Part shown: positions 34,948 through 39,801 of the stretch, in pieces
How positions within the stretch are numbered: position 1 is the stretch's first letter
Layout of the letters: each line of letters begins with the position of its first letter
Position numbers and translations under genes: made by a program
Origin: Halalkalicoccus sp. CG83
Lineage (GTDB): Archaea > Halobacteriota > Halobacteria > Halobacteriales > Halalkalicoccaceae
Length of the DNA stretch: 64,000 bases
Direction: 5' to 3'
Assembly (NCBI RefSeq): GCF_037081715.1
Contig: NZ_JAZDDH010000001.1
Location: forward strand, 1,240,001-1,304,000
Notes under the pieces: generated by a model
What the model was told of the DNA's origin: nothing
What the model saw: the letters and a program-made list of their open reading frames with translations, nothing else
Databases searched by the model: none

Positions 34948-34969
34948 GGCTGACCCGCCAGGGTCAGCC
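34948..34969 (-). terminator. Hairpin plus T-run overlapping the asparaginase stop codon
   Basis: Arms of 9 bp (GGCTGACCC and GGGTCAGCC on the minus strand) enclose a 4-nt loop. The TGA stop of the asparaginase gene is inside the first arm. On the minus strand the hairpin is followed by TCGCCCTTTTC, giving an intrinsic-terminator look. It may also affect translation termination. Confidence 0.6.
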
Positions 34970-35935
34970 GAGGGCTTTCGTTTGCATGAGTTCGCTGTTG
35001 TAGGCGCTTCCCGTCTCGCCCTCGCGATCACAGACGATGATCCCCGCGGTTGAGTCGGTGAGCTCCGCGAACTCCTCGATCGCCCGGTCGGCCGCCTCCT
35101 GTGCGCTCGCGCCCTCCTCGAGGTGGTCGACCGCGCACCGCGAGAGGGTGGTCCGGGCGATGTCCTCGCCCGCGCCGGTGGCGCTCGCGCCGCCCGCGGG
35201 AGCGCAGTAGAAGCCGCTCCCGATCTGGGGGACGTCGCCCACCCGGCCGGCGAGCGCAAGCCACCGCCCGCCCGTCGAGGTCGCCGCCGCGACCCGCTCG
35301 CCGTCGCTCGCGACGGCTCCCACCGTGTCGTGATCCGGAGGATCATTGCCCGCCGAGCTCTGCTCGGCGATGTCGTGATCCCTCTGCTCACGGCCAGTCG
35401 ACCCTCGTTCGACGCGGTCGTGATCCAGGTCGCGTCCCTCGGGATCGTCCGCCGTCTCGCCGAAGCGCTCGCGCACCCACGCGAGCTGGTCGAGCGGGCC
35501 GCCCCGGGGTGGATCCGCCTCCTCCCAGCGCTCGCGAGTGCTCGGGGACCGGAGGTCCTCCTCGACGTCGATTCCGCAGTCGGCGGCGAAGTCGACGGCG
35601 TGGACTCCCGAGAGCATGACGTGTGGCGTCTCCTCCATCACCGCGTGGGCGACGTCGACGGCGTGAGACACGCCGGGCATCGAGCAGGCCGCGCCCGCCG
35701 AGCGGTCAGACGTCATGATCCCGGCGTCGGTGCGAACGATCCCGTCGCTCTGGATCGCCCCGCCGACCCCGGCGTTGAACCGGGGGGAGCTCTCGAGGAC
35801 GCGGACGGCCGCACGGACCGCCTCCGTCGGCGTCGCCGTACTCGCTCCGTTCTCCGCGGCCTCGTCGAGCGTCTCCTGGCGGAGCTCGGGCTCCTCGTGA
35901 GCACTTCCGGCCCCACCGTGAACGATCACGTTCAT
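34964..35935 (-). CDS. Isoaspartyl peptidase/L-asparaginase, Ntn-hydrolase family
   Basis: This 323-residue precursor belongs to the plant-type asparaginase family (IaaA/EcAIII). Motifs include VIVHGGAGSAHEEPEL, FNAGVGGAIQSDG, DAGIMTSDRSAGA and the autocleavage site DHDTVGAVASDGERVAAATS with the catalytic Thr. GRVGDVPQIGSGFYCAPAGG and ATGAGEDIARTTL follow. Cleavage before that Thr gives alpha and beta subunits. The linker before the site is long, charged and His/Asp/Gln-rich, as usual. It hydrolyses isoaspartyl dipeptides and asparagine. Confidence 0.93.
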   Translation of the reverse strand: MNVIVHGGAGSAHEEPELRQETLDEAAENGASTATPTEAVRAAVRVLESSPRFNAGVGGAIQSDGIVRTDAGIMTSDRSAGAACSMPGVSHAVDVAHAVMEETPHVMLSGVHAVDFAADCGIDVEEDLRSPSTRERWEEADPPRGGPLDQLAWVRERFGETADDPEGRDLDHDRVERGSTGREQRDHDIAEQSSAGNDPPDHDTVGAVASDGERVAAATSTGGRWLALAGRVGDVPQIGSGFYCAPAGGASATGAGEDIARTTLSRCAVDHLEEGASAQEAADRAIEEFAELTDSTAGIIVCDREGETGSAYNSELMQTKALG

Positions 35936-37284: not shown

Positions 37285-38520
<1,236 letters not shown>

Positions 38521-38544
<24 letters not shown>

Positions 38545-38661
38545 CGGCCAACCGTTCGGACTCTCGCGGCGATGCCGCGAGAACATCGAAGAACTCGCCT
38601 AAGGCGATTTTCGAGCAATCAGACGCCGGAGGCGTCTGATCACATCGAAGAGCTGGCTTAG
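38521..38661 (+). repeat. Triplicated icd 3' tail with interleaved hairpins
   Basis: Copy 1 (38521-38544) encodes ENIEQLA-stop, copy 2 (38579-38602) encodes ENIEELA-stop and copy 3 (38638-38661) encodes DHIEELA-stop. The spacing is 58 and 59 nt. Copies 1/2 match at 19 of 24 bases and copies 2/3 at 18. Between them lie perfect hairpins, at 38562-38582 (9-bp arms, loop GAT) and 38618-38640 (10-bp arms, loop GGA). In each copy the stop codon itself lies in the loop of a smaller hairpin, for example TTGGCC-TAAC-GGCCAA at 38536-38551, and copy 2 is followed by TTTT. The frame after the real stop stays open to the copy 3 stop, so readthrough would add 39 residues. Confidence 0.85.
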
Positions 38662-38853
38662 ACCAGTTCGTCAAGTGGTCGGATTCCGTCGGGATCCGGT
38701 GTTAGTGAACGGCCGTCGTAGACGACGATTCGGATTCCTTCGCAGCCGCGATGACGTCGGGACGGACGGCGTAGAGCGGCTTTCCGAGCAGTCGTCATCG
38801 TCAGCGAGAGCGTCGAGAAACCGACTACGGCGTGCGTTCGTCCCGAGTCGCCG

Positions 38854-39801
38854 TCACACCGCGTCCTGGATCTCCGAGCGCATCGAGTCGAGCTGTTCCT
38901 TCGACTCGGCCTTCGACCCCAACACGTCGGTACAGACGTCGACGAGCACCTCGTCGGCTCCGTCCTCGTCCTCCTCGTCCTCGAACGCGAGCAGTCCCTG
39001 GCCGATCATCACGGCCGCCCGCGTGCCGACGTGGACGTCGAGTCGATCGCGCAGCTCTCGGACGAGGTCGACGACCTGTTCGATCCGGTCCCCGCGGAGC
39101 GACTCGACGCGCGCGGCGACGATCTCGACCTCGGTCTCGCGCTCGTAGTAGCCCATGTGGACGCCGATCAGCCGATCGAGCAGCGCGTCCTGTGGGCGGT
39201 GGACGCCGGCGTACTCCGTCGAGTTCGACGTGAGGATCGCGCGGAACTCGGGATCGACGTCGATCGTTCGGTCCTCGCCGCGCTGGCCGGGTCGATCGAG
39301 GACCCCCTCCTCGAAGACCGACAGCAGGACGTTGTGTGCCGCCGGTTTCGTCCGGGAGAACTCGTTGTAGACCAGCGTCGCGCCGTTCCGGACCGCGACC
39401 GAGAGCGGATTGTCCACCCAGCGGTCCCGGATGATGGACTTCTTCTTCGTCACCCCCGAGACGAACGTATCCCGCTCCTTGTACTGGGCCTTCCCGGAGC
39501 GCTCGCCCACCAGCGACGCGGTGTCGAGCATCTCGTTGCCGTTGATCCAGACGACGGGCCGGTCGCGGGCGGCGGCGATCGACAGCGCGAGCGCGGTCTT
39601 CCCGCAGCCGGTCGGACCCACGAGGTGAACTGGGTGTGGTACGTCGAGCCAGCGCTCGACCCGGTCCTGGAGTGCGTTGATCTCGTCGGTCTCGATGAAG
39701 GCCCCCCCGATCGCCTCCTCGACCGTCGTCGGCGTGGTCTCGACTTCTCCCTCCCCCTGCTTCTGCATGAACCGTTCGAGTTGGCGTTCTTCCTTTTCCA
39801 T
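38854..39801 (-). CDS. GvpN-like AAA+ (MoxR-type) ATPase outside a gas-vesicle cluster
   Basis: This 315-residue protein has the Walker A motif GPTGCGKTALALS near residue 64, then INGNEMLDTASLVGERSG. The GvpN-typical stretch WVDNPLSVAVRNGATLVYNE and FSRTKPAAHNVLLSVFEEG follows, with a sensor-like ILTSNSTEYAG. Walker B reads LVYNEF, with Asn before the Glu instead of Asp. GvpN assists gas-vesicle growth in haloarchaea, but no other gvp gene is near. The end has an acidic stretch (FEDEEDEDGADE). It may have been recruited to another assembly task or belong to a split cluster. Confidence 0.8.
   Translation of the reverse strand: MEKEERQLERFMQKQGEGEVETTPTTVEEAIGGAFIETDEINALQDRVERWLDVPHPVHLVGPTGCGKTALALSIAAARDRPVVWINGNEMLDTASLVGERSGKAQYKERDTFVSGVTKKKSIIRDRWVDNPLSVAVRNGATLVYNEFSRTKPAAHNVLLSVFEEGVLDRPGQRGEDRTIDVDPEFRAILTSNSTEYAGVHRPQDALLDRLIGVHMGYYERETEVEIVAARVESLRGDRIEQVVDLVRELRDRLDVHVGTRAAVMIGQGLLAFEDEEDEDGADEVLVDVCTDVLGSKAESKEQLDSMRSEIQDAV

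Follow-up and report, generated by a model that had tools for sequence, protein, structure and literature searches.

Tandem hairpin repeats at the 3' end of icd in Halalkalicoccus sp. CG83: probably a local accumulation of units of a dispersed palindromic mini-element

In Haloquadratum walsbyi, terminal-only elements of 52 bp (PATEs), which are derivatives of IS605-type elements, consist of palindromic ends with no gene between them and are possibly mobilisable (PMC3119063). The element described in this study resembles PATEs in its haloarchaeal host, its length of about 52 bp, its near-terminal palindromes and a size too short for a transposase. By their description, PATEs have no target duplication and their palindromes are related to IS605 ends; the present element shows a direct repeat of at least 6 nt (possibly a target duplication), variable stems, in-frame insertion and an apparent copy of host coding sequence. 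The Rickettsia palindromic elements (RPE; Ogata et al. 2000; reviewed in PMC10969869) are palindromic mini-elements lying in frame in many unrelated protein genes, where they encode a recurring peptide, and the same was found here. RPE are bacterial and about 150 bp long, whereas the archaeal unit has 45–61 nt and two hairpins; unlike RPE, it also forms tandem arrays which regenerate the interrupted sequence. REP sequences and BIMEs with their RAYT transposases (PMC3733652) likewise combine short palindromes with constant tags that are short; they frequently lie 3' of genes and in clusters, but their GTAG or CGTC tag is not conserved in the present element, which has the constant linkers GAGCAR and RACAYC and is mostly intragenic. 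Perfect inverted repeats within coding genes occur also in mitochondria of Nematomorpha, in another domain of life and with lengths of up to 284 bp (PMC6649704).

MITEs possess terminal inverted repeats, which are absent here, where the ends are direct RACAYC repeats. In the mitochondria of Allomyces, a mobile element in atp6 carries a replacement 3' end of the gene and encodes an endonuclease. As proposed below for icd, the protein receives a new C-terminus from the inserted element, and the former one is shifted downstream; the haloarchaeal element, in contrast, has no gene. No description of the family was found in the open-access literature on haloarchaeal coding palindromes, and an earlier description is possible.

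The window analysed here is a stretch of 64,000 nt from Halalkalicoccus sp. CG83 and contains the icd gene (Table 1), whose full-length relatives within the genus are 78–91% identical. The original prediction, that the last eight codons of icd including the stop occur three times in degenerate form at steps of 58 and 59 nt (repeat positions 38525, 38583 and 38642) and that perfect hairpins of 9 and 10 bp with 3-nt loops separate the copies, was confirmed. A stop codon lies in a hairpin loop at all three copies, as had also been claimed, with imperfect helices at copies 2 and 3; the quality of these stop hairpins declines with the distance from icd (copy 1 > copy 2 > copy 3). Beyond copy 3 comes a fourth, decayed unit, which the original prediction had overlooked. 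Hairpin-separated tail repeats were found only at icd in 464 kb of the own genome, and in the 864 kb searched for gene-tail repeats with an intervening hairpin, icd was accompanied by one weak coincidence in genome G127. As the array is the only one of its kind in these 464 kb and recurs at icd in many relatives, it is not due to chance. Comparison of positions 38000-39200 with Rfam 15 gave no family match up to E 1, and a search of a plasmid collection yielded an icd coding match and nothing else.

Table 1. Features of the icd 3' end, the dispersed copy in the window and the classes of hairpin 2 at icd
Feature	Position	Strand	Sequence	Remarks
icd, NADP-type isocitrate dehydrogenase, 419 aa	37285..38544	+		ORF; final codons are tail copy 1
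Tail copy 1	38521..38544	+	ENIEQLA-stop	functional end of icd
Tail copy 2	38579..38602	+	ENIEELA-stop	
Tail copy 3	38638..38661	+	DHIEELA-stop	
Unit 1, hairpin 1	38535..38552	+	GTTGGCC-TAAC-GGCCAAC	icd stop in loop; 7 bp, perfect
Unit 1, hairpin 2 (alpha class)	38562..38582	+	TCTCGCGGC-GAT-GCCGCGAGA	9 bp, perfect; 3-nt loop
Unit 2, hairpin 1	38586..38614	+		stop TAA in loop; 5 bp and imperfect outer helix
Unit 2, hairpin 2 (beta class)	38618..38640	+	ATCAGACGCC-GGA-GGCGTCTGAT	10 bp, perfect; 3-nt loop; preceded by linker GAGCA, followed by CACATC
Unit 3, hairpin 1	38650..38669	+	GAGCTGG-CTTAGA-CCAGTTC	decayed; imperfect 7-bp helix
Decayed fourth unit	about 38671..38728	+	GGTCGGATTCCGTCGGGATCCGGT ... 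GAACGGCCGTCGTAGACGACG	matches by eye the unit that closes a relative's icd array (L009)
Dispersed-element copy in asparaginase gene (34964-35935)	35324..35375	-		in frame; found by linker-plus-hairpin scan
Hairpin 2, alpha class			CTnnCGGC type	8 bp
Hairpin 2, beta class			GTCAGAACGC type	10 bp
Hairpin 2, gamma class			CCCGGAAATC type	10 bp

For the comparison of relatives, which the original prediction had proposed together with a genome-wide search for the unit, 120 icd 3' ends of the order were gathered and tail copies were chained in 119 of them (one duplicate record was omitted). At least one tail copy 52–64 nt further on was present in 46 of the 119 loci and in 8 of the 12 labelled families, with frequencies ranging between 9/9 loci, in the family to which the window belongs, and 1/15 in another; the longest arrays have five units. 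Carriers include Natronococcus amylolyticus, Halorubrum species and Haloarcula vallismortis, the last of which was not counted because it duplicates a survey genome. The copies share residues peculiar to the icd tail of their own host (NINELA in G125, IHELA in G055 and G122, IHDLA in G089). Between 65 tail copies and the respective icd tails, 151 synonymous and 117 non-synonymous codon differences were counted, while random placement of the same number of changes (2000 runs) gave 41.3±6.0 synonymous (maximum 61) and 234 non-synonymous ones. Codon positions 1, 2 and 3 account for 110, 53 and 199 differences, and the stops swap among TAA, TAG and TGA. As the differences are mainly synonymous or concern the choice of the stop codon, the displaced copies look like former coding tails.

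The share of intact tails decreases with rank in the array (45/46, 33/46, 6/10, 2/3, 1/2 and 0/1). The simplest reading is that the array extends at the gene side, where each new unit supplies a functional tail and moves the previous one away from the gene. Within genus g20, the tail and flank of species without a unit match the second, displaced copy of the unit-bearing species. The tail of one species, G166, seems to be a hybrid, as expected of a deletion between repeats, and therefore loss of units at icd probably happens as well.

Several icd-related loci are unusual in other respects. In G002, a second icd copy (L331, C13:175422-175692, minus strand) has an in-frame internal deletion, by which about 58 N-terminal residues are joined to the C-terminal tail FADAIVENIEELS-stop. 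Two icd copies per genome occur in G006 (L006, L009) and G004 (L007, L010); L009 carries a long, partly inverted hairpin array, and both icd-bearing contigs of G004 terminate inside icd. In G003 (L317, C268:3330-3501), Icd-type hairpin units lie between the ends of MoxR-like genes on a contig which shows no icd gene.

Each icd unit consists of two hairpins. Hairpin 1 is formed by the tail and its inverted copy, and its loop contains the stop; hairpin 2 belongs to one of three recurring classes that are mixed within single arrays. Both hairpins covary strongly (94.8% of the cells paired vs 72.5% in shuffles; 105 double-sided changes vs 33), and one-sided changes are few. The typical unit of the whole family, about 45–61 nt long, runs from a RACAYC or RACRYC hexamer through hairpin 1, a short linker (typically GAGCAR) and hairpin 2 to the hexamer again (CGACAYC). 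The stems vary between copies even inside one genome, unlike those of a recently spread element.

A first covariance model, built from icd units, had all its strong matches at icd ends or related places, and the tail-repeat search had likewise suggested an icd-specific feature. This was overturned by a comparison of linkers, as weaker matches of the model, located in valS, folD and further genes, shared the linkers RACAYC, GAGCAR and CGACAYC. With one mismatch allowed, the pattern GACGAGCnnnGCTCGTCGAGCAR matched 15 times in 142 genomes (reversed control: 0), mostly in frame within unrelated proteins; a pattern scan of viral contigs gave no match. A second covariance model (R2) was then trained on 16 elements, none of them from icd (95.8% of the cells paired; 43 double-sided and 2 one-sided changes). 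Applied to 47 kb of icd loci, R2 gave eight best matches which were all icd beta units (E 1.8e-7 to 1e-3), and the beta unit of the window was matched at 38581-38646 (E 0.007 in 864 kb). Judged by this independent test, the icd beta units are members of a dispersed double-hairpin family. The alpha units, unit 1 of the window included, have two hairpins and RACATC, lack the GAGCAR linker and were not retrieved by R2, so that they may be assigned to the family by architecture only. In addition, 20 of 23 bases of hairpin 2 are identical between icd of G066 and folD of G086.

Over whole genomes, R2 yielded 400 matches with E values no higher than 0.001. These are spread over 99 of the 142 haloarchaeal genomes, and the own assembly accounts for 13. 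Of 50 inspected matches, 49 lie within an open frame of 150 or more codons; since long frames also arise by chance in GC-rich DNA, the gene contexts weigh more than this count. Element-bearing genes, named by eye from their translations, include folD, valS, mutS, hemC, hisC, histidine kinases and icd. The in-frame units encode a recurring Ser/Asn/Asp-rich peptide, e.g. DTDEQSSSSNRTQSDD, of the type D-x-x-E-[QR]-S-S-x-x-[SN]-R-T-x-S-D-D. In 138 of 149 cases the match length equalled 1 modulo 3. This was not taken as evidence, since the model's own length favours 52 and 58; the reading frames themselves were inspected.

Some of the dispersed copies lie outside genes. An intergenic array in the own genome (L230:7900-8030; C1:1087900-1088030) contains at least two element hairpins, and a longer array of this intergenic type is found at and around C5:376816-376879 of G002. 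Tandem hairpins in G127 (3142985 and 2852130) were set aside, the linkers being absent. Particularly rich in elements are G087 (L445-L449, 26 matches) and G131 (L440-L444, 17 matches), which are good places for seeking the responsible enzyme.

Empty and filled sites among relatives were observed at three loci, namely folD, the asparaginase gene and icd in genus g20. In folD of G075, a 51-nt in-frame insert (GACGAGC-AGA-GCTCGTC GAGCAG CCAGAACTC-TTC-GAGTTCCGG C GACACC) is placed after GACACT and before GAGAAGGGC, while its congeners G082 and G095 have the empty site GACACC-GAGAAGGGC. G086, a member of another family, has an insert of the same kind, and G085 and G063 carry a different version at the same spot. 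The GACAYC direct repeats flanking the insert may have arisen as a target duplication or may belong to the end of the element itself. The surroundings of the site (RACAYC-GAGAAG) correspond to the icd tail sequence (AACATC-GAGAAGCTC). The asparaginase copy of the window, which belongs to the R2 training set, was matched by R2 with E 4e-14; G004 and G015 each have one unit at this site, and G001, G002 and G005 lack it. The insert in this asparaginase-family gene (about 35324-35420) contains two in-frame units, of which one is clear and the other decayed. They immediately precede the presumed catalytic Thr (DHDRVERGSTGREQR-DHDIAEQSSAGNDPP-DHDTVGAVA), in a loop whose length is highly variable among haloarchaea. 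In histidine kinases, in-frame units are located at the ATP-binding N-box, and AVEHG is repeated with each unit in alternating synonymous codons (at least two such units in L451 and L452 on C10 of G125 and in L428 of G114; one in L430 of G136). The AVEHG repeats of the tandem array in G125 parallel the EKLA-stop repeats at icd.

Units thus recur in many unrelated genes, in frame and with empty and filled sites; they form tandem arrays at icd and at other loci, hairpin 1 repeats host sequence at several sites, and the copies decay with distance. With a probability of about 0.68, the icd array is a local pile-up of this dispersed, probably mobile family of palindromic mini-elements, for which the icd tail is a hot spot, and hairpin 1 at icd is best read as the carrier of a replacement tail. 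Among the explanations offered by the original prediction, the one that regards the array as the footprint of a tail-carrying palindromic mini-element inserted repeatedly fits best, given the dispersal of the double-hairpin unit in haloarchaeal genes and the empty and filled folD sites. The target of insertion would be RACAYC or RACRYC followed by GAG or a GTCGAG-like sequence, and AACATC-GAGAAGCTC in the icd tail would offer such a target, AACATCGAGAAGCTCGCGTAA. The left arm of hairpin 1 would copy the host coding sequence just downstream of the target, and it is proposed that genes mostly survive insertion, probably because this arm re-supplies the coding sequence that is interrupted. At icd, each insertion would bring a fresh tail and stop and push the old coding tail downstream, where it would decay. 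The hairpin-rich 3' ends would be a by-product, perhaps tolerated for their additional help in defining the mRNA end. Candidate routes might be single-strand hairpin transposition of the IS200/IS605 type, as PATEs, the nearest described haloarchaeal elements, suggest, or fold-back copying.

More tentatively, it is quite possible, though somewhat less likely than not, that such tiny elements enter genes class-wide in haloarchaea without breaking them, in that insertion folds the adjacent host coding sequence into hairpin 1 and rebuilds it, and that the C-terminus of icd has been replaced repeatedly in this way. Mobility itself is deduced from the distribution of the units; against it stands that neither a transposase nor movement was seen in the analysis, and the pattern of presence and absence could also be explained by deletion through direct repeats, as the hybrid-like tail of G166 illustrates. 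Further points against the pile-up reading are the stem differences within single genomes, the deviating linker of the alpha units, the modest R2 score of the window's beta unit and the copies outside genes.

Alternatively, the end of the gene might have been duplicated locally in tandem and kept as a structured 3' UTR, serving as a serial terminator or as mRNA-stabilising hairpins. Recombination between the 21-nt repeats would then amplify and remove units, and the tail of G166 again suggests repeat-mediated deletion. The region 38520-38670, folded as RNA, is indeed very stable (z = -8.35; 0 of 200 shuffles equally stable), a T tract follows right after the array in many relatives, and hairpin-dependent termination exists in Haloferax, where a hairpin terminated 59% of the transcripts in reporter tests with H. 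volcanii (PMC7237163). Nevertheless, this explanation is unlikely, as many icd genes have no array, the synonymous divergence of the copies presupposes that they were once under selection as coding sequence and the double-hairpin unit also occurs inside open frames of unrelated genes. Termination cannot be the reason for the latter units, since they lie inside genes. Moreover, G-U is not clearly above A-C among the imperfect pairs (GT:AC 7:4 and 12:13), an argument, as far as such small numbers allow, that selection does not act on the strand transcribed into RNA. The multi-step terminator of the original prediction is therefore less likely as the reason for the structure; an effect of the array on the end of the icd mRNA is possible as a side effect.

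The 3' ends of icd genes are known integration targets; the element e14 and phage 21 use the icd gene of E. coli as attachment site. As every tail copy restores the gene end, the array might also be regarded as the relic of a site-specific integrative element, i.e. a virus or plasmid, with the copies as leftover attachment sites. Up to five regular units, a hairpin in nearly all of them, the absence of an element interior and the occurrence of the double-hairpin unit elsewhere in the genomes make such an origin very improbable. Even less credence can be given to a programmed readthrough of the stop codon yielding an extended Icd. In the own genome the frame is open from stop 1 to stop 3, in agreement with the claimed 39 extra residues, but the stop-to-stop spacing takes all values modulo 3 among species, and a readthrough product is consequently unlikely; the extension is, besides, derived from palindromes and not conserved. 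The translation-end buffer and the extended enzyme considered at the outset are thus unsupported.

If the icd array is indeed a pile-up of mobile mini-elements, hairpin arrays of this kind should not by default be read as terminators or regulatory RNAs, and the element family would account for odd Ser/Asp-rich insertions in haloarchaeal proteins. Should gene-rebuilding insertion prove true, it would represent a mode of DNA insertion or copying that is new to description. Short palindromic elements which add peptides to working proteins are best known from Rickettsia; a similar but distinct family in most of the sampled haloarchaeal genomes would make movement and frame retention testable in archaea that are easily grown and genetically tractable.
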